A model generated the notes under the pieces. That model saw nothing but the letters and a program-made list of their open reading frames with translations. It made no database searches and had not been told where the DNA came from. From Oscillospiraceae bacterium Marseille-Q3528 (GTDB taxonomy: Bacteria > Bacillota > Clostridia > Lachnospirales > Lachnospiraceae), in the NCBI GenBank assembly GCA_018223385.1, contig JAGTTR010000022.1:17431-81430 (forward strand): a stretch of DNA of 64,000 nucleotides, given 5' to 3'. A program made the position numbers and the translations under genes. How positions within the stretch are numbered: the stretch's first letter is position 1; every line of letters begins with the position of its first letter. Below, in pieces: positions 7,666 to 28,137 of the stretch.

Positions 7666-9567
7666 ATGGAATCACAGATAAAGATGACAATGGAGGAATT
7701 ACAGCAGGAGAAGGCAAATCTGGAGAAGTTTTTCACAGAGGTACGGGTTTTGAAGGGGGCAGTGCTGGAAGCAGAAGAGGACAGAGACGGGATTGCATAT
7801 AAGGCGCTGAAGAATCGGTCCGGATGGAGCGGCCTGGAGCAGAGGGGCACAGTGACCTGTCAGGTGCTTGCAAGATATGTGGAGGTGGACGGCGAACCGT
7901 ATGTGCTGGAGATGTTCGGTGAGCTGGATGAGAATCCACAGCTGTATACCGGTGGCGCGGATACGTTGGAGATCTTTATGGAGAATTACAATGAGCGCCT
8001 GTACACAGATGCGCTGACCGGTGTTTATAACCGCCGGTATTATGAGGACGAGATCAAGCTGCTGAAGATCCGCGGGGGGATCGCAGTCATTGATCTGGAT
8101 GATTTTAAGCTGTACAATGATCTGTACGGCCATCATGCCGGGGACATGGCGCTCTGTGCGGCTACCCAGGCGATCCTCGAATGCGTCCGCAAGTCGGATA
8201 TCCTGATCCGCTACGGCGGCGATGAATTCCTTTTGATTTTGCCGGATATGTCGGCGGAATACTTTGATAAGAAACTGGAGCAGATCCATCAGAAGATCTG
8301 CAGTACAAAGGTCAGAGATTTCAATAGGCTCCAGCTGGCAGCCAGCATTGGCGGGGTCCTCGAGACAGACCATCCGGTGGAGGAGGCTGTGGAGCGGGCG
8401 GACCGGCTCATGTATCAGGCGAAAAACCGGAAAAATGCGGTGGTGACGGAGAAAAATAAGGATGGTATCATCTCGGAAATCAATGAGCTGGAAGAGAAAG
8501 CGGAAGAGGATGTGTGTAAGCAGATCGTTCTCATTGTGGATGATTCTGATTTCAACCGGGCATTGCTGGGGGAGATGCTGCGCAAGGATTTTTCTATTAT
8601 GGAAGCGTCTTCCGGCGAGGCATGTCTGGAAGCGCTGCAGCAGTATGGCACCGGCATTTCCCTTGTGCTGCTGGATATCGTCATGCCCGGCATGGACGGT
8701 TTCGGCGTGCTGAATGTGATGAATTCCCGTCACTGGATCGATGATATTCCGGTCATCATGATTTCCAGTGAGGATTCCGCCCAGCACATCCGGCGGGCGT
8801 ATGACATGGGCGTATCGGACTACATCAGCCGTCCCTTTGACGCGGAGGTCGTATACCGGCGTGTATTTAACACCATCAAGCTATATGCAAGACAGCGGCG
8901 GCTGACTGCTATCGTTTCCGACCAGATCAACCAGAAAGAGAAGAACTTCCAGATGATGGTTTCCATCCTGAGCCACATTGTAGAGTTTCGTAATGGGGAA
9001 AGTGGTCTGCATGTACAGCATATTCATATTCTGACGGAGATGCTGCTTGCACGGCTTGTGCAGAAGACGGATGCCTATCCGCTGTCCTGGTCGGAACAGT
9101 ATGTCATTGCCATCGGTTCAGCACTGCATGATATCGGCAAGATCGGTATTGATGAGAAGATTCTGAATAAGCCGGACAAGCTGACTGCCGAGGAGTTTGA
9201 GATCATGAAATCCCACACGCTGATCGGTGCGGCCATGCTGAATGACCTGAGTACATACAAGGATGAGCTTCTGCTGAAGGTGGCTTACCAGATCTGCCGC
9301 TGGCATCATGAACGGTATGACGGCGGCGGTTATCCGGATGGGCTGAAGGGAGAAGAGATTCCCATTTCCGCCCAGGTAGTGGCGCTGGCAGATGTGTACG
9401 ATGCTCTGGTGAGCAAGCGGGTATACAAGCCTGCTTTTTCCCATGAAAAAGCGCTGGAGATGATCATGAACGGTGAGTGCGGTGCTTTTAATCCGATTTT
9501 GCTGGAATGCCTGAAGGACATCAGTAAAGAGATCAGGATACGCTATGAGAATGATGAGATGAAATAA
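7666..9567 (+). CDS. Diguanylate cyclase - receiver - HD-GYP phosphodiesterase protein
   Basis: A 633-residue cytoplasmic protein with both arms of cyclic-di-GMP turnover. After an N-terminal region of about 110 residues (possibly sensory), a GGDEF domain spans about 112-260. It has an intact G-G-D-E-F at 184-188 and a product-inhibition I-site R-K-S-D at 175-178, five residues upstream as in active cyclases. A receiver domain at about 286-402 has V-D-D near 290-293 and phosphoacceptor D337. The usual switch lysine is replaced by arginine (S-R389-P). An HD-GYP domain at about 430-625 has H488-D489, the H-H pair near 547 and G-G-Y-P-D-G-L near 554-560. It makes and degrades c-di-GMP in one chain, and the receiver probably sets the balance. 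The Hpt gene follows after 15 bases. Confidence 0.92.
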   Translation: MESQIKMTMEELQQEKANLEKFFTEVRVLKGAVLEAEEDRDGIAYKALKNRSGWSGLEQRGTVTCQVLARYVEVDGEPYVLEMFGELDENPQLYTGGADTLEIFMENYNERLYTDALTGVYNRRYYEDEIKLLKIRGGIAVIDLDDFKLYNDLYGHHAGDMALCAATQAILECVRKSDILIRYGGDEFLLILPDMSAEYFDKKLEQIHQKICSTKVRDFNRLQLAASIGGVLETDHPVEEAVERADRLMYQAKNRKNAVVTEKNKDGIISEINELEEKAEEDVCKQIVLIVDDSDFNRALLGEMLRKDFSIMEASSGEACLEALQQYGTGISLVLLDIVMPGMDGFGVLNVMNSRHWIDDIPVIMISSEDSAQHIRRAYDMGVSDYISRPFDAEVVYRRVFNTIKLYARQRRLTAIVSDQINQKEKNFQMMVSILSHIVEFRNGESGLHVQHIHILTEMLLARLVQKTDAYPLSWSEQYVIAIGSALHDIGKIGIDEKILNKPDKLTAEEFEIMKSHTLIGAAMLNDLSTYKDELLLKVAYQICRWHHERYDGGGYPDGLKGEEIPISAQVVALADVYDALVSKRVYKPAFSHEKALEMIMNGECGAFNPILLECLKDISKEIRIRYENDEMK

Positions 9568-9582
9568 TGGGGGAGAATGACA

Positions 9583-9939
9583 ATGACGGTAAAAGAGTGC
9601 TATGAAAAAGTGGGATCCGATTATGAGGCTGTGCTGAAACGGCTGGGAAGTGAGGATATGCTGAAGCGCTTTTCCATTAAATTTCTGGATGATCCGAGTT
9701 TTCAGTCTTTGCAGGAGAATCTGAAGGCAGGCAACACCCGGGAAGCATTCCGGGCAGCGCACACGTTGAAGGGAATCTGCGCGAATCTGGGATTTGACAG
9801 ACTGTTTGAGACAGACAGAGAACTGACAGAGCTGCTGCGCGGAGGTGACCAGACCGGATGGGAGCCGCTGTTCGCACGGGTGGAAGCGGATTACAAAGCA
9901 CTGACAGTGGCCATTCGGGAGCTTGCAGCGGAAAGCTGA
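9583..9939 (+). CDS. Hpt-domain phosphotransfer protein
   Basis: A 118-residue all-helical Hpt domain with the conserved A-H-T-L-K-G-x-x-x-N-L-G motif; the phosphoacceptor is H60. Such proteins shuttle phosphate between the receiver of a hybrid kinase and a final receiver. I chose the ATG at 9583 rather than the ATG six bases earlier because the GGGGGAGAA site (9569-9577) gives a normal spacing only to 9583. It lies 15 bases after the GGDEF-REC-HD-GYP gene and is probably co-transcribed with it. The natural donor in this window would be the hybrid kinase at 122-2308. That pairing is inferred from domain logic and proximity. Confidence 0.88.
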   Translation: MTVKECYEKVGSDYEAVLKRLGSEDMLKRFSIKFLDDPSFQSLQENLKAGNTREAFRAAHTLKGICANLGFDRLFETDRELTELLRGGDQTGWEPLFARVEADYKALTVAIRELAAES

Positions 9940-9958
9940 GTATGGAAGGGGCTTTTTT

Positions 9959-12790
9959 ATGCCTGTTGATAAGAAAGATAGCAAGAAAAGAAAACATGTC
10001 TGTCTGGGCATCCTGGCCCACGTGGATGCGGGAAAAACAACTCTGTCGGAAGCGCTGCTCTACGAGAGCGGCAGCATCCGCAAACTGGGACGGGTGGATC
10101 ACCGGGACGCTTTTCTGGATACGGACGCGCTGGAGCGGGAGCGGGGCATCACCATCTTTTCCAAGATGGCAGAATTTTCTACGGAAGAGATGGACGTGAC
10201 GCTGCTGGATACGCCGGGGCATGCGGATTTTTCCACGGAGATGGAGCGCACCCTGCGGGTGCTGGACTATGCGGTGCTGGTCATCAGCGGCACGGACGGC
10301 ATCCAGGGGCACACGGAGACGCTGTGGAAGCTGCTGGAGCAGTACCGGATCCCCACGTTTCTGTTCATCAATAAGATGGATCGGCCGGGGACGGATGCCA
10401 GATCCCTGCTGCTGGAGCTGCGGCACCGGCTCCATGGCGGCTGCATCGACTTCGGACGGCCGGAGGGGGACGAGCTCTTTTATGAGGATGCGGCGCTGAC
10501 GGACGAGGATGTGATGGAGGACTTTTTGCTGACCGGGCGGGTGGAAGATGCGGTCATTGTCCGTCTCATCCGGGAGCGGAAGATTTTTCCCTGTTATTTC
10601 GGATCAGCGCTGAAACTGGAGGGCATCCGGGAGCTGCTGGCGGGACTGGAGGCGTATACAGAAGAGAAAACCTATCCGGCAGAGTTTGGTGCCCGGGTGT
10701 TCAAGATCGCCCGGGATGAGCAGGGCACAAGACTGACGTATCTGAAGGTCACCGGCGGCAGCCTCCGGGTGAAAACCATGCTGGAGGGCCGGGACTGGCA
10801 GGAGAAGGCTGACCAGCTGCGCATCTATTCCGGTGTCCGGTATACGACGGCGGAGGAGGTGGCTGCGGGCCGGATCTGTGCGGTCACCGGTCTGTCGTCC
10901 ACCGTGCCGGGAGAAGGGCTGGGCATCGAGCCGGAGGGGGAAAAGCCCAGACTGACACCGGTCTTGAGCTACCAGATCTGTCTGCCGGAGGAGACGGATG
11001 TGTACCAGGCCTTTCTGAAATTAAAGCAGCTGTCGGAAGAAGATCCCTCTCTTTCCATTGTGTGGGAAAAAGAAAGCGGCGAGATCCATGCCCGGGTCAT
11101 GGGTGAGATCCAGATCGAGGTGCTGCGCAGACTGATTCGGGATCGGTTCGATATGGAAGTGACCTTTGCGGACGGCAGCATTGTATACCGGGAGACGATC
11201 CTGGCCCCGGTGGAGGGCGTGGGCCACTTTGAGCCGCTGCGGCATTATGCGGAGGTGCACCTGCTGCTGGAGCCGGGAGAACCGGGCAGCGGCCTGACCT
11301 TTGCCACAGCCTGCAGCGAGGATGTGCTGGATCTCAACTGGCAGCGGCTCATTCTTACCCATCTGGCGGAGGTGCCCCACCGGGGCGTGCTCACCGGATC
11401 ACAGATCACGGACATGAAGATCACCCTGCTGTCGGGGAAAGCCCATCTGAAGCATACCGAGGGCGGGGATTTCCGGCAGGCCACGTACCGGGCGGTGCGC
11501 CATGGCCTTATGCGGGCCGAGAGCGTGCTGCTGGAGCCGGTGTATGTGTTCCGGCTGGAGGTGCCTGCAGAGCTGACGGGCCGGGCCATGTCGGATCTGC
11601 AGCGGATGAACGGCCAGCTGGACGAGCCGCAGACGGAGGACGACTACACCATCCTCACCGGCAGTGCGCCGGTGGCTGCCATGCAGGGGTATCCATCCCA
11701 AGTGGCTGCCTACGGCAAGGGCCGGGCAAGGCTGTCCCTTCGCCTGAAAGGCTATGAGCCGTGCCACAATGCGGAGGAGGTCATTGCCGCTTCCGGGTAC
11801 GATCCCGAGGCGGATGCAGCGCATCCGGCGGGATCGGTGTTCTGTGCCCATGGGGCCGGATACTATGTGCCCTGGCAGGAGGTGGCGGAACATATGCACC
11901 TGCCCTGGGGATGGCTGCCGGGCCAGAAACGGCCGGAACCCGGCAGTACCGGACGGCCTGCGGGCATGCGCAGCGGCGGCGGAAACGCCGGGCGGATGGC
12001 CGGGGGCTTCGGGGCTGAGGACAAGGAGCTGGAAGAGATCTTCCGGCGCACCTACGGCGAAGACAAACGGGAACGGACGCGAGCGGCGCGGCTGGTGACG
12101 GCGGCGGAGCAGAGTGCATCCCCGGCGAGAGTGACCGGGACAGATGCTGACGGTGAACAGCACAGTGGGAAGCTGGCTGGTATGGGAAATGCCAATCCGG
12201 CAGACAAGCCCGAAGAGTACCTGCTGGTGGACGGCTACAACATCATTTTCTCCTGGGACGAGTTAAAAGACCTGGCGAAGGACAGTCTGGACGGCGCCAG
12301 GGGGCGGCTCATGGAAATCCTGAGCAACTATCAGGGCATCCGGGGCGGTACGCTGATCCTGGTGTTTGATGCTTACCGGGTGGCGGGCGGCCAGGGCTCC
12401 ATCTCCAAATATCACAACATTTATGTGGTATTTACCAAGGAGGCGGAGACGGCAGACCAGTATATCGAGAAAACGGTACATGCCATGGGCCGCAAAGCCC
12501 GGGTGACGGTGGCCACCTCCGACGGCCTGGAGCAGGTGATCATCCTGGGGCAGGGTGCGGTGCGCATGTCGGCCCGGATGCTGAAAGAAGAGATTCTGTC
12601 GGCATCGGCAGAGCTGCGGGAGCTGTACCGGGAGGTGATCCAGGAGACGACCGTGCGCAGTGGAAGCGGCCTTTTCGATAAACTTTCCGAAGAAGAGGCA
12701 CAGGCCGTGCAGGACGCCCGGCTTGGCAGACGGGAGCTGTTTGATGTCGACGAAGATCACAAGATTGTGAAAAATAACGAAAAAAAGTAA
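9959..12790 (+). CDS. TetM/EF-G-like translational GTPase fused to a Rae1/YacP-type NYN ribonuclease
   Basis: A 943-residue protein. Residues 1 to about 660 are a translation-factor GTPase of the ribosomal-protection (TetM/TetO) branch of the EF-G family. G1 is A-H-V-D-A-G-K-T-T, followed by the switch motif R-E-R-G-I-T-I, G3 D-T-P-G-H-A-D-F and G4 N-K-M-D, with EF-G-like domains II-V behind. A Gly/Arg/charged linker (about 660-750) leads to a C-terminal NYN domain (about 750-943). It has V-D-G-Y-N, V-F-D-A-Y-R, E-T-A-D-Q-Y-I-E-K and V-A-T-S-D-G-L-E-Q, which match the acidic active-site pattern of YacP/Rae1. Rae1 of Bacillus subtilis cleaves mRNA in the ribosomal A site. The start at 9959 is set by GGAAGGGGC eight bases upstream. 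It is probably a chromosomal ribosome-associated factor; tetracycline resistance should not be assumed. Confidence 0.88.
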   Translation: MPVDKKDSKKRKHVCLGILAHVDAGKTTLSEALLYESGSIRKLGRVDHRDAFLDTDALERERGITIFSKMAEFSTEEMDVTLLDTPGHADFSTEMERTLRVLDYAVLVISGTDGIQGHTETLWKLLEQYRIPTFLFINKMDRPGTDARSLLLELRHRLHGGCIDFGRPEGDELFYEDAALTDEDVMEDFLLTGRVEDAVIVRLIRERKIFPCYFGSALKLEGIRELLAGLEAYTEEKTYPAEFGARVFKIARDEQGTRLTYLKVTGGSLRVKTMLEGRDWQEKADQLRIYSGVRYTTAEEVAAGRICAVTGLSSTVPGEGLGIEPEGEKPRLTPVLSYQICLPEETDVYQAFLKLKQLSEEDPSLSIVWEKESGEIHARVMGEIQIEVLRRLIRDRFDMEVTFADGSIVYRETILAPVEGVGHFEPLRHYAEVHLLLEPGEPGSGLTFATACSEDVLDLNWQRLILTHLAEVPHRGVLTGSQITDMKITLLSGKAHLKHTEGGDFRQATYRAVRHGLMRAESVLLEPVYVFRLEVPAELTGRAMSDLQRMNGQLDEPQTEDDYTILTGSAPVAAMQGYPSQVAAYGKGRARLSLRLKGYEPCHNAEEVIAASGYDPEADAAHPAGSVFCAHGAGYYVPWQEVAEHMHLPWGWLPGQKRPEPGSTGRPAGMRSGGGNAGRMAGGFGAEDKELEEIFRRTYGEDKRERTRAARLVTAAEQSASPARVTGTDADGEQHSGKLAGMGNANPADKPEEYLLVDGYNIIFSWDELKDLAKDSLDGARGRLMEILSNYQGIRGGTLILVFDAYRVAGGQGSISKYHNIYVVFTKEAETADQYIEKTVHAMGRKARVTVATSDGLEQVIILGQGAVRMSARMLKEEILSASAELRELYREVIQETTVRSGSGLFDKLSEEEAQAVQDARLGRRELFDVDEDHKIVKNNEKK

Positions 12791-12879
12791 AAAAAGTATA
12801 AAATTTTTCCATATATTTCCACTGGCATTTTTGAGAAAAAAGTGATAAAACATAGGTAACACAAAAAGAAATGCAGTGA

Positions 12880-13150
12880 ATGGGATACACTGCGGTGGAT
12901 TTTTTCATGACAGAGAGCCGTCGGTCGGTGCGAGACGGAATGAAGCCCACAGCAGCATCACCCTGGAGCATCCCGCTGAAACAGATCTTCGGATCGGCAG
13001 TAGGAGGGGACGGATTCTCACCGTTACAGGAGACGCTGTTGGCATGCGACAGCAGATAAGAGACCGGGAAGTTCCGGTAAGCAGAGTGGTACCACGGAAG
13101 AATGACTTTCGCCCCTGCAGTCTTTGTACAAGGACTGCGGGGGTTTTTTG
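12880..13150 (+). promoter_or_regulatory. T-box riboswitch leader upstream of cstA
   Basis: A structured leader in the 448-base gap before cstA. The strongest mark is the T-box sequence AGAGTGGTACCACGG (13083-13097). It is followed by a Rho-independent terminator (CCCC-t-GCAGTC paired with GACTGC-g-GGGG, 13112-13144, then a T-run to 13149). Upstream is a stem-I-like region with AGAGAG followed by a GGTCGGTG loop (about 12910-12935), as in other T-boxes. Uncharged tRNA should favour the antiterminator and switch on the downstream gene. The specifier codon is not resolved by eye; candidates lie in the segment near 12955-12970, where ATC, TGG and CTG can all be read. The left boundary is approximate. 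Confidence 0.85.
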
Positions 13151-13238
13151 ATTTTTCAGATGGTAATTTTTCCGCAGCAGCATTGTTTTTGTGAAAATAC
13201 TTTCCACCCGTGTGGAAATCAGAAAAGAGGAGTTACAT

Positions 13239-14936
13239 ATGAATGGAATCACAATGATGGTTATCGCCATCGTCGTTCTGGGAGGCGCCTATCTGTTATA
13301 CGGCCGTTATCTGGAACGGAAATGGGGCATTGACCCCAACGCAAAAACGCCCGCTTATGAAATGGAGGACGGTGTAGACTATGTACCGGCAGACACCAAT
13401 GTGGTATTTGGTCATCAGTTCGCATCTATTGCCGGTGCAGGCCCGATCAACGGCCCCATCCAGGCTGCCATGTTCGGCTGGCTGCCGGTACTGCTGTGGG
13501 TTCTGGTGGGCGGCGTGTTCTTCGGTGCTGTGCAGGATTTTGCATCCATGTACGCATCGGTGAAAAATAAAGGACGTACCATCGGTTACATTATCGAGGA
13601 GTACATTGGCAAGTTGGGCAAAAAACTGTTCCTTCTGTTCTGCTGGCTGTTCTGCATCCTTGTCGTTGCCGCTTTCGCAGACGTGGTAGCCGGTACCTTC
13701 AATGGCTTTGCCACAGATGCTGCCGGTGCTGTGACAACAGTAAAAGCCAACGGTGCCGTGGCAACCACCTCCATGCTGTTTATCGTAGAGGCAGTGATCC
13801 TTGGAATGATTTTAAAACATGCCCGTCTGAATAAATGGGTGAACACCGCCATCGCCATCCTGATGCTGGTGGCAGCTGTTGCCATCGGACTGAACTGCCC
13901 GGTTTATCTCACAAGAACCACCTGGCATATCATTATTTTTGCCTATGTTCTTGTGGCCTGTGTAACGCCGGTATGGGCACTGCTCCAGCCAAGAGATTAC
14001 CTGAACAGTTACCTGCTGATCTTCATGATCGTGGGTGCCATTGTCGGTGTGTTCGTATCCAATCCGTCCTGTAACCTGGAAGCTTTCACCGGATTCAACG
14101 TGGATGGGCAGTACCTGTTCCCGATCCTGTTTGTTACCATTGCCTGCGGTGCCGTTTCCGGCTTCCACTCGCTGGTATCCTCCGGAACCGCATCCAAGCA
14201 GATCAAGAGTGAGCGCAACATGCTGCCGGTATCCTATGGTGCGATGCTGATGGAAAGTATGCTGGCTGTCCTGGCACTGATCGCAGTCGCATCCTTCGCG
14301 AAGGGAGAGGCAGCAGCCCAGGGCCTGACCACACAGCCGCAGATTTTCGCAGGCGCCATTGCAAACTTCCTGACAGCTGCAGGCCTGCCTTATGATCTGG
14401 TATTTACCCTGATCAATCTGGCTGTATCCGCTTTCGCCCTGACATCCCTGGACTCCGTTGCCCGGATCGGCCGTCTGTCCTTCCAGGAGTTCTTTGTGGA
14501 GGACGGTATGGATGAGGGCAACATGAGCCCGTTCCTGAAAGTAGTTACCAACAAATACTTTGCAACCATCCTGACACTGGTGCTTTCCTATCTGCTGGCA
14601 AAGGTCGGTTATGCGGAAATCTGGCCGCTGTTTGGTTCTGCCAACCAGCTGCTGTCTGTTCTGGCACTGGTTGCCTGTGCTGTATTTTTAAAGAAAACCA
14701 ACCGGCAGGGCGCAATGCTCTGGTTCCCCATGGTCTTCATGATGGGTGTGACCTTTACCGCCCTGAGCATGACCATTGTCAAACTGAGCAAAGCATTTGT
14801 GACTACAGGATTAACCCTTGGAACAACCCTGCAGCTGATCTTTGCAGTCCTGCTGCTCATCCTTGGTGTCATCGTAGCTGTACAGGGCATCCGCAAACTG
14901 GCAGAGAAAACTGAAAAAACCGCGAAGGTAGCGTAA
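13239..14936 (+). CDS. cstA: CstA-family carbon starvation / peptide or pyruvate permease
   Basis: A 565-residue polytopic membrane protein with the CstA signature near the N-terminus (F-G-H-Q-F-A-S-I-A-G-A-G-P-I-N-G-P) and about 14-16 hydrophobic segments. CstA proteins were first described as peptide permeases induced by carbon starvation, and related proteins import pyruvate. The start at 13239 has AAAGAGGAG seven bases upstream; a longer reading into the T-box region lacks support. The gene stands alone between a T-box leader and a strong terminator. Its expression is therefore likely tied to the charging of one tRNA, which favours an amino-acid or peptide uptake role over pyruvate. The substrate is inferred. 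Confidence 0.9.
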   Translation: MNGITMMVIAIVVLGGAYLLYGRYLERKWGIDPNAKTPAYEMEDGVDYVPADTNVVFGHQFASIAGAGPINGPIQAAMFGWLPVLLWVLVGGVFFGAVQDFASMYASVKNKGRTIGYIIEEYIGKLGKKLFLLFCWLFCILVVAAFADVVAGTFNGFATDAAGAVTTVKANGAVATTSMLFIVEAVILGMILKHARLNKWVNTAIAILMLVAAVAIGLNCPVYLTRTTWHIIIFAYVLVACVTPVWALLQPRDYLNSYLLIFMIVGAIVGVFVSNPSCNLEAFTGFNVDGQYLFPILFVTIACGAVSGFHSLVSSGTASKQIKSERNMLPVSYGAMLMESMLAVLALIAVASFAKGEAAAQGLTTQPQIFAGAIANFLTAAGLPYDLVFTLINLAVSAFALTSLDSVARIGRLSFQEFFVEDGMDEGNMSPFLKVVTNKYFATILTLVLSYLLAKVGYAEIWPLFGSANQLLSVLALVACAVFLKKTNRQGAMLWFPMVFMMGVTFTALSMTIVKLSKAFVTTGLTLGTTLQLIFAVLLLILGVIVAVQGIRKLAEKTEKTAKVA

Positions 14937-15071: not shown

Positions 15072-15575
15072 ATGCGGGATCAGTTGACGAAAAATGATAT
15101 CAAAAAAATAGAAGAAGAGATCGAATACCGGAAACTGGTGGTGCGAAAGGAAGCCATTGAGGCGGTGAAGGAAGCCAGAGCCCAAGGGGATCTGAGTGAA
15201 AACTTTGAGTATTATGCGGCGAAGAAGGACAAGAATAAAAATGAGAGCCGGATCCGCTATCTGGAGCGGATGCTCCGCACCGCGGTGGTGGTCTCTGACG
15301 AGTCCAAAGAAGATGAAGTGGGCATCAACAACACGGTGACCCTTTATATGGAAGAGGACGATGAGACAGAAACTTACAAGCTGGTGACCAGTATCCGGGG
15401 CAATTCCCTGGAAGGAAAGATCAGCACCGAGTCCCCGCTGGGTAAGGCCATCCTTGGGAAAAAGCAGGGGGATCGGGTGCTGGTAAAGGTCAACGACAAT
15501 TACGGCTATTATGTGGTGATCAAAGCCATTGATAAAAGCACCAACGATGCGGAAGACGATATCCGTAAATTCTGA
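15072..15575 (+). CDS. GreA/GreB-family transcript cleavage factor
   Basis: A 167-residue protein with the two-part Gre layout. An N-terminal antiparallel coiled coil (to about residue 80) has the acidic tip G-D-L-S-E-N-F-E-Y near 40-48. A C-terminal FKBP-like globular domain ends near I-K-A-I-D. Gre factors enter the RNA polymerase secondary channel and stimulate cleavage of backtracked RNA. The acidic Asp/Glu pair in the tip is present, so the catalytic role is likely intact. The length is slightly above canonical GreA (about 158), and GreA cannot be separated from a Gre paralogue here. The M28 peptidase gene follows 23 bases later. Confidence 0.85.
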   Translation: MRDQLTKNDIKKIEEEIEYRKLVVRKEAIEAVKEARAQGDLSENFEYYAAKKDKNKNESRIRYLERMLRTAVVVSDESKEDEVGINNTVTLYMEEDDETETYKLVTSIRGNSLEGKISTESPLGKAILGKKQGDRVLVKVNDNYGYYVVIKAIDKSTNDAEDDIRKF

Positions 15576-26295: not shown

Positions 26296-28137
26296 TTACT
26301 GCACCGGTTTTTTATTGATGGATGCACGTTTTCTTAAAGTCGGATCCAGGATCTTCTTGCGCAGACGCAGGCTCTTGGGGGTAACCTCCAGCAGCTCGTC
26401 GGTGTCGATGAATTCCAGGGACTGCTCCAGGCTTAAGATCCGGGGCGGTGTCAGGGTCAGGGCATCGTCGGAACCCGAAGCACGGGTGTTGGTCAGATGT
26501 TTGCGCTTGCAGACGTTGACCTCGATATCGTCGGATTTGCCGTTCTGGCCGATGATCATACCGGCATATACCTTCTCGCCGGGGCCGATGAACAGGGTGC
26601 CGCGCTCCTGTGCCACGAACAGGCCGTAGGTAACCGCCTCGCCGCTCTCGAAAGCGATGAGGGAACCCTGCTTGCGGTACTGGATGTCTCCCTTGTACGG
26701 GCCGTACTCATTGAAGATCGTGTTGATGATACCGTTTCCCTTGGTGTCTGTCATAAACTCACCGCGGTAGCCGATGAGGCCGCGGGCGGGAATGGAGAAC
26801 TCCAGACGGGTGTAGCCGCCGGAAGCAGCGCCCATGTTCAGCAGCTCGCCTTTTCTCTGGCTTAACTTGTCAATAACGGTACCGGTAAATTCCTCCGGTA
26901 CGTCGATGTAAGCCAGCTCCATGGGCTCTAAGAGTTTGCCGTTCTCGTCGCGGTGGTACAGCACCTCAGCCTTGCTGACAGCGAACTCATAGCCTTCCCG
27001 GCGCATGTTCTCGATGAGGACGGACAGATGCAGCTCACCACGGCCGGACACCTTGAAGCTGTCCATGTTGTCTGTCTCTTCCACACGCAGGCTGACATCG
27101 GTGTTCAGCTCCCGGAACAGACGCTCACGCAGGTGACGGGAGGTGATGAACTTTCCTTCCTGTCCTGCCAGCGGGCTGTCGTTGACAAGGAACTGCATGG
27201 CGATGGTAGGCTCGGAAATCTTCTGGAACGGGATGGCTACCGGGTTATCTGCGGAGCAGATCGTATCGCCGATGTGGATATCTGCAATACCGGAAATGGC
27301 TACGATGGAGCCGATGCCGGCAGATTTTACTTCTACTTTGTTCAGACCGTCGAACTCGTACAGCTTGCTGATCTTGACGCGCTGTTTTTTGTCCGGGTCG
27401 TGATGGTTTACCAGTACGGCGTCCATGTTGACACGGATTTCGCCGTTGTCCACTTTGCCGACACCGATACGGCCCACATATTCGTTGTAGTCGATGGTGC
27501 TGATGAGCACCTGTGTGCTTGCCTCCGGATTTCCTTCGGGAGCCGGGATGTAGTCCAGGATCGTCTCAAACAGGGGAACCATGTTTTCCGGCTTGTCGTT
27601 TAAGTCGCGCACAGCATAGCCTGCTTTTGCAGATGCGTATACGAAGGGGCAGTCCAGCTGCTCGTCGGAAGCGTCCAGATCCATGAAAAGCTCCAGCACT
27701 TCGTCGATGACAGCCTCCGGTCTTGCCTCCGGCCGATCAATCTTGTTGATGCAGACAATAACCGGCAGATCCAGCTCCAGCGCTTTTCGCAGAACGAATT
27801 TGGTCTGAGGCATGGGGCCCTCAAATGCGTCAACAACGAGGACAACGCCGTTGACCATCTTCAGCACACGCTCTACCTCGCCGCCGAAGTCTGCGTGCCC
27901 GGGGGTGTCAATGATGTTGATCTTGGTGTTCTTATAATATACGGCAGTATTCTTGGAAAGAATGGTGATGCCGCGCTCACGCTCAATGTCGTTGGAATCC
28001 ATCACGCGCTCCGCCACTTCCTGATTCTCACGGAATACGCCGCTCTGTTTTAACAGTTCATCTACGAGTGTCGTCTTGCCGTGGTCAACGTGTGCGATGA
28101 TGGCAATATTTCTGATATCTTCTCTTTTTGTCCGCAT
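26296..28137 (-). CDS. typA: Ribosome-associated GTPase TypA/BipA
   Basis: A 613-residue translational GTPase. G1 is A-H-V-D-H-G-K-T-T at 15-23, the switch motif is R-E-R-G-I-T-I near 53-59, G3 is D-T-P-G-H-A-D-F and G4 is N-K-I-D. EF-G-like domains II, III and V and the BipA-specific C-terminal domain follow. The motif [14 protein letters not shown] in that last domain is diagnostic. BipA assists 50S subunit assembly and growth under stress or cold. The gene is monocistronic, with a shared terminator downstream. This is one of two translational GTPases in the window; the other carries a nuclease domain. Confidence 0.96.

Follow-up and report, generated by a model that had tools for sequence, protein, structure and literature searches.

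A translational GTPase with a Rae1/YacP-type nuclease tail in Lachnospiraceae: a candidate ribosome-targeted Rae1

In the available parts of the literature on Bacillus subtilis, Rae1 (YacP) appears as a translation-dependent endonuclease of the ribosomal A site (PMC6613710, PMC10100781, PMC12320835), and its gene is co-transcribed with yacO, a homologue of rlmB (PMC6613710). In a separate line of work, the accessible sections of Atkinson 2015 (PMC4342817) described a YacP-like NYN domain acquired by Tet proteins in ten species of Clostridiales, and suggested an RNase-based resistance. A gene of this architecture is analysed here in a stretch of 64,000 nucleotides (the window, by which the whole stretch is meant) from Oscillospiraceae bacterium Marseille-Q3528 (contig JAGTTR010000022.1, positions 17,431 to 81,430), where an earlier note had read positions 9959-12790 as the fusion of a TetM/EF-G-like GTPase with a Rae1/YacP NYN ribonuclease and had been aware of no biochemical description of the arrangement. 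This last point held in part: the architecture itself is already known from the sections of Atkinson 2015 at hand, which report no experiment on the fusion. No other paper with the architecture was found in searches of the open-licence PMC literature, in which the other matches listed were judged by title, counts and the start of the abstract, and no experiment on the function of the joined protein was found in the same literature. What is new here is the separation of the GTPase from the ribosomal protection proteins (RPPs), the apparent displacement of stand-alone rae1 and the fossils left by it, the grouping of the fused rows in one clade, and a motif in the linker. Altogether, the balance tips somewhat towards a ribosome-targeted Rae1, in which an EF-G/Tet-like GTPase of its own clade would bear the only Rae1/YacP nuclease of the cell on a flexible tether.

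The gene is a single open frame of 943 amino acids plus stop, in which an EF-G/Tet-like GTPase is followed by a linker and then by a NYN_YacP domain, so that the reading of the earlier note is borne out by Pfam in both halves. A start at an in-frame TTG (9923) would lengthen the protein by 12 residues, but the ATG at 9959 is the likelier start because GGAAGGGG sits 7 bases before it:

9944..9951, forward strand: Shine-Dalgarno-like GGAAGGGG, 7 bases 5' of ATG 9959 (sequence).
9959..12790, forward strand: fused translational GTPase-Rae1 gene, 943 amino acids (open reading frame, Pfam).

An AlphaFold2 model built on an alignment of 49 sequences (mean pLDDT 81.4, pTM 0.63) is mostly confident in both domain parts and of low confidence in the linker that joins them. 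EF-G and EF-2 type factors alone are found among the matches listed by Foldseek against the PDB, which say nothing on the NYN part, and the identity of the latter therefore rests on sequence matches. In this regard, the tail reaches 165 bits against a cut-off of 24.6 for PF05991, and its best match in a sequence search of the PDB is YacP (5mq9, 5mq8; E about 2e-27), which identifies it as a Rae1/YacP-type NYN. Four aspartates (D758, D804, D833 and D855), which we take to be the acidic active site of the NYN/PIN fold, are invariant in all of the 55 aligned fused proteins over which conservation was counted, and have thus not been lost in the homologues:

12221..12721, forward strand: NYN_YacP (Rae1) domain, residues 755-921 (Pfam PF05991, 1.9e-48).
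12230, 12368, 12455 and 12521 (codon starts), forward strand: four invariant Asp codons (alignment).

The spread of the fusion was followed in three samples that share some genomes: 140 Lachnospiraceae (one genome per genus, at least 90% complete), 147 genomes of the class and 149 of the phylum. Fused genes, counted by eye and including frames interrupted or split over contigs, make up 119 of the 127 NYN-bearing genomes in the family sample, the other 8 having a stand-alone NYN (G011, G028, G033, G079, G084, G090, G118, G173); the remaining 13 of the 140 gave neither a NYN nor a GTPase match at 1e-40. The NYN was found in 100/147 genomes of the class sample (54 fused, 46 stand-alone) and, over cut-off, in 84/149 of the phylum sample (11 fused, 73 stand-alone), where all 11 GTPases of the clade are those of the 11 fused genes, including one interrupted frame (G001). 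Since 119 of 140 Lachnospiraceae genomes have the fused type, the joined frame is not the product of an assembly error, a possibility that the earlier note had raised. Moreover, a protein search with the NYN only gave at least 7977 candidates of about the length of the fusion, all with E up to 0.001, and the precomputed domains among the matches listed are EF-G-type domains plus NYN. In a scan of named loci, with a query that was built from fused NYNs and hence favours fused loci, the best 80 comprised 75 fused genes (73 complete, 2 at contig edges), 2 interrupted frames and 3 NYNs near the end of a contig or locus; the fused hosts include Blautia, Robinsoniella, Mediterraneibacter, Frisingicoccus and Lachnoclostridium. 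As to a mobile gene, which was considered and set aside, the NYN part matched 23 of 72,556 plasmid records, and two of the 10 listed, both large (252 and 518 kb), have annotations suggestive of the fused type.

Some public records deserve a separate mention. In NZ_CP143948 (Agathobacter rectalis) the NYN match lies under a feature named TetM/TetW/TetO/TetS family resistance protein, and in NZ_OY725736 (Monoglobus) under one named translation factor GTPase family protein; both annotations suggest fused genes, probably misnamed in public data. Two phage-labelled records of human-faecal 'Bacteriophage sp.', MT835514 and MT835563, contain NYN_YacP matches at 52% and 65% identity, which may be host DNA.

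In the family sample the fusion usually carries the sole NYN of the genome, and no second complete NYN was found in any of its fused genomes. The partial second matches comprise a 139-residue fragment at a contig edge in G066 (contig C121, L159), a genome that is also fused and is listed at 5% contamination, which is a possible source of the fragment; in G097, a piece at the edge of a contig that stays under the cut-off; and in G146, two neighbouring parts of a single frame. In all but two (L039 and L057) of 34 loci, hence in 32, stand-alone rae1 adjoins rlmB and/or sigH. In each of nine hand-picked fused genomes, rlmB and sigH are neighbours and no rae1 gene lies between them. These gene names were verified at two loci only, those of G001 and G280, in both of which rlmB is over the cut-off of TIGR00186; sigH of G001 lies above the cut-off of NF006148 (219 of 208 bits) and below that of TIGR02859 (210 of 294.8), a model that is exceeded in only 4 of 14 genomes. 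The fused genome G197 keeps a decayed rae1 in the slot, of which two pieces match the intact Rae1 of G226 (46% over 98 columns and 57% over 37) and are separated by a gap with stops in all three frames read; G226, which is congeneric, lacks the fusion and carries its rae1 as an intact stand-alone gene. In fused G057, the first ~30 codons of rae1 persist between rlmB and sigH. Remnants were thus seen in 2 of 10 slots inspected, which is not a rate, G057 having been chosen for its second NYN piece; a second weak NYN match in G294, with neither rlmB nor sigH nearby, was taken as chance. Such fossils are the expected remains of a replacement, and together with the slot lacking a rae1 gene they indicate that the fused NYN appears to have displaced stand-alone rae1 in the genomes examined, whose absence the earlier note had proposed to look for.

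The front of the protein contains the five domains of a translational GTPase, each above its own Pfam cut-off save EF-G_D2, followed by an extension:

9992..10660, forward strand: G domain, residues 12-234, with P-loop AHVDAGKTT, DTPGH and NKMD (Pfam GTP_EFTU, 1.6e-52).
10685..10903, forward strand: domain II, residues 243-315, weak (Pfam EF-G_D2, 22.5 bits, below the cut-off of 27).
10958..11167, forward strand: domain III, residues 334-403 (Pfam EFG_III, 1.9e-08).
11177..11518, forward strand: domain IV, residues 407-520 (Pfam EFG_IV, 5.1e-16).
11216..11257, forward strand: domain-IV segment GVGHFEPLRHYAEV, residues 420-433, clade-typical (pattern, alignment).
11435..11473, forward strand: domain-IV loop III GKAHLKHTEGGDF, residues 493-505 (alignment; SPVSTPADF is the corresponding loop in Tet(M)/Tet(O)).
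11525..11770, forward strand: domain V, residues 523-604 (Pfam EFG_C, 7.4e-18).
11798..11899, forward strand: C-terminal extension with an S-V-F-C-x-x-G motif, residues 614-647 (pattern in 51 of 55 fused proteins).

The GTP-binding motifs are conserved throughout the fused proteins (P-loop pattern 54/55, DTPGH 55/55, NK.D 54/55), and so are marks that are shared with unfused relatives. The domain-IV GHFEPLRHYAEV pattern is found in 51/55 fused proteins, and the EPLRHYAEV-type pattern in 16/17 unfused rows of the clade and in no RPP, EF-G or intermediate row. The HT-GGDF pattern of loop III occurs in 53/55 fused proteins and 17/17 unfused clade rows, is absent from RPP and EF-G rows and is present in one intermediate, L131. 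The SVFCxxG extension, modelled by AlphaFold2 as a hairpin plus a helix, is likewise common to fused and most unfused GTPases of the clade. Given that the extension and the domain-IV patterns are shared in this way, the distinctive GTPase predates the fusion.

The TetM-like character that the earlier note gave to this part stands insofar as TetO and TetM are the best matches in a sequence search of the PDB, and thereby the nearest solved relatives, but it does not extend to membership of the family. The NCBIfam model tet_protect scores 405 bits, below its cut-off of 775, as the EF-G model TIGR00484 scores 283.9, below 659.4; loop III reads LKHTEGGDF in the window protein versus SPVSTPADF in Tet(M)/Tet(O); and in the GTPase tree the fused and unfused rows split from 2 RPP rows and 4 intermediates with support 100/98, a quick tree likewise leaving 2 RPP rows outside. 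On these comparisons the GTPase is assigned to an EF-G/Tet-like clade of its own, apart from the RPPs. Within it the fused rows form one group (support 100/100) that contains 0 of the 17 unfused rows, which indicates that the fused GTPase arose once among the sampled rows; as no unfused row nests inside, no fission is seen among them. With a profile of 21 rows, clade members of the class sample reach at least 717 bits, three rows score in between (G304 587, G217 526, G276 503), and among the matches listed the RPP-length rows have 448-476 bits and the EF-Gs up to about 450. Unfused GTPases of G380 and G339 in the phylum sample also fall between clade and RPPs, at 544-546 bits, and a single-sequence search gave another unfused intermediate in G090 of the family sample. 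Four of these six intermediates are rows of the tree, and it is possible that they represent a further subfamily.

These data bear directly on the suggestion in print, in the accessible sections of Atkinson 2015 (PMC4342817), that the joined protein protects ribosomes from tetracycline and gains from its NYN tail a further resistance mechanism, in which an RNase acts perhaps on rRNA. Such a reading agrees with the nearest PDB relatives and with the names of the TetM/TetW/TetO/TetS family in some public records, but the low tet_protect score, the RPP rows outside the clade and the different loop III all speak against it, some fusion genomes hold separate RPP-like genes of 643-644 amino acids elsewhere, and the gene replaced by the fusion, rae1, is a resident one. 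Resistance is consequently held to be very unlikely as the function of the joined protein.

The region between the two parts belongs to the fusion, because unfused GTPases stop just past the extension, and the start of almost every stand-alone NYN lies at or a little ahead of the DGYN motif:

11924..12202, forward strand: linker, residues 656-748 (pLDDT below 50 at 656-691 and 697-748).
12008..12055, forward strand: conserved linker motif around DKELEEIFRRTYG, residues 684-699 (pattern; low-confidence modelled helix).

The model confidence suggests that the linker is probably disordered for most of its length. The distance from the extension motif to DGYN is narrowly distributed, with a median of 96 residues, the middle half at 93-101 and a range of 85-224 (n=51 of 55). 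A pattern E[LIV]x(1-2)[IL][FILMYA] was recognised in 50/55 linkers, where 200 shuffles gave 2.7 on average and 7 at most, a comparison that is generous as the pattern was picked after viewing the linkers; the five linkers missing it have near variants by eye. E690 is kept in 53/55 and I694 in 52/55 fused proteins, and AlphaFold2 places at 684-699 a helix that is itself largely low-confidence. We infer that this motif could be a helix that docks on the ribosome or on a partner.

Targeting is the simplest reading of a nuclease that is joined to a ribosomal GTPase with conserved motifs. The fusion would cut mRNA on translating or paused ribosomes, like Rae1 of B. subtilis; its GTPase module with GTP would bind the factor site of the ribosome and raise the local concentration of the nuclease, and GTP hydrolysis would end or time the visit. 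Domain IV of a ribosome-bound EF-G-type factor fills the decoding site, and it is unlikely that this domain and the NYN occupy the A site together. A sequential use would thus be expected, in which the GTPase docks and departs before the nuclease, on its tether, moves into the emptied A site or reaches mRNA nearby.

This steric problem weighs against delivery by the GTPase, and several other points weigh against the reading as a whole. Rae1 of B. subtilis works without such a GTPase. Four genomes (G200, G203, G228, G242) have the GTPase without a NYN match, and the GTPase can therefore exist alone. When the parts are separate genes, the pooled samples give 10 genomes with both, 4 with the GTPase only, 117 with the NYN only and 121 with neither (Fisher p=0.17); by sample, p is 1.0 for the class and 0.0005 for the family, in tables made by eye, uncorrected for relatedness and counting shared genomes (G202 at least) twice. 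The tree of NYN domains sets fused and stand-alone rows apart with 2 label changes and weak support; a single fused NYN group is not rejected (p-AU 0.361), and descent of the fused NYN from rlmB-adjacent rae1 fits this weakly supported tree. Finally, the frame is interrupted in or near the linker at a minimum of four loci (G001, G069, L204, L231), one of which, L231, is also broken near the start. Sequencing errors or decay, the latter meaning a real loss, are the likelier cause of these interruptions; a programmed frameshift was set aside on the same judgement, no search for frameshift signals having been made. The independent existence of each part and the non-significant pooled co-occurrence also favour a neutral or merely stoichiometric fusion, where GTPase and Rae1 act separately and were joined by historical accident. 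Against it stand the absence of unfused GTPases nested in the fused clade, the narrow length of the linker and the conserved motif within it, and such an accident is regarded as improbable. The joint absence of both parts in 13/13 NYN-less Lachnospiraceae was also considered as evidence of coupling and discarded as mostly trivial, because one fused gene carries both.

Other roles have to be weighed against a ribosome-targeted Rae1. Stand-alone rae1 adjoins rlmB, a 23S rRNA methyltransferase gene, and is often near a small RNase III-domain gene, presumably mrnC. Both neighbours would suit a factor of ribosome assembly or stable-RNA processing, whose GTPase docks on immature ribosomes while the NYN trims rRNA or tRNA, and a part in the maturation of rRNA and tRNA has indeed been suggested for the NYN domain (Anantharaman and Aravind 2006, cited in the available part of PMC4342817). 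On the other hand, B. subtilis Rae1 is described in the accessible parts of its literature as a translation-dependent cleaver of mRNA, and 13 of the 140 family genomes lack both parts, so that a processing role is quite unlikely. A more elaborate version of targeting would be a one-protein surveillance that tries to rescue and then cuts: the GTPase would clear or reset the A site of a paused ribosome, Rae1, kept close by the tether of ~96 residues, would enter the empty A site and destroy the mRNA if the pause outlasted GTP hydrolysis, this hydrolysis would serve as the timer between repair and decay, and the linker motif would dock on the ribosome or a partner. This full scheme is put forward as a long shot. 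A defence system was dismissed, as PADLOC gave no match.

The surroundings of the gene were also inspected. Directly upstream, at 7666-9939 on the forward strand, lie a GGDEF-receiver-HD protein and then an Hpt-domain protein. Downstream on the same strand follow a T-box leader at 12867-13119 (RF00230, 94.3 bits, gathering 93), with the gene of a CstA-family carbon starvation protein just behind it (13191-14936), and a GreA/GreB-like protein of 167 amino acids (15072-15575). GreA-like relatives occur in 10 of the 75 fused named loci, always downstream and on the same strand, and a protein that reads from its sequence as MATE-type transporter-like occurs in 10 of 75 in variable position; these are the two largest groups of neighbours, and a conserved operon partner was rejected, such counts being too weak to indicate function. 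On the reverse strand, a 613-residue frame at 26296-28137 has about 41% identity to the GTPase part over 128 residues, and probably encodes a further translational GTPase, TypA or LepA for example.

Widespread in Lachnospiraceae and present in many other Clostridia, the fusion means that many gut bacteria carry Rae1 as the tail of a GTPase. Having displaced the stand-alone form, as it appears, it offers a natural system for asking how Rae1 finds paused ribosomes, and it suggests how a nuclease of mRNA in the A site could be targeted and timed. Moreover, public entries of the TetM/TetW/TetO/TetS family name that have a NYN tail are unlikely to be resistance genes, a point that matters for surveys of the resistome.

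Compared with known systems, the tail has the same NYN_YacP domain and the same acidic residues as B. subtilis Rae1/YacP, which reportedly, in the account of Leroy in 2017, is a stand-alone protein of about 170 amino acids without a GTPase. Tet(M) and Tet(O), whose function is drug displacement, resemble the front of the fusion as five-domain translational GTPases and are its nearest solved sequences, but have no nuclease, a different loop III and a separate clade. RelE-type nucleases have an unrelated fold, a toxin-antitoxin context and no GTPase. What they share with Rae1 is the cleavage of mRNA in the A site (available part of PMC12320835). The closest relatives remain the Tet-NYN fusions of Atkinson 2015, a group that includes the window protein and agrees with it in architecture and bacterial class; in the sections at hand that work files them as Tet proteins without a link to Rae1, whereas here the GTPase separates from the RPPs and the gene appears to replace rae1.

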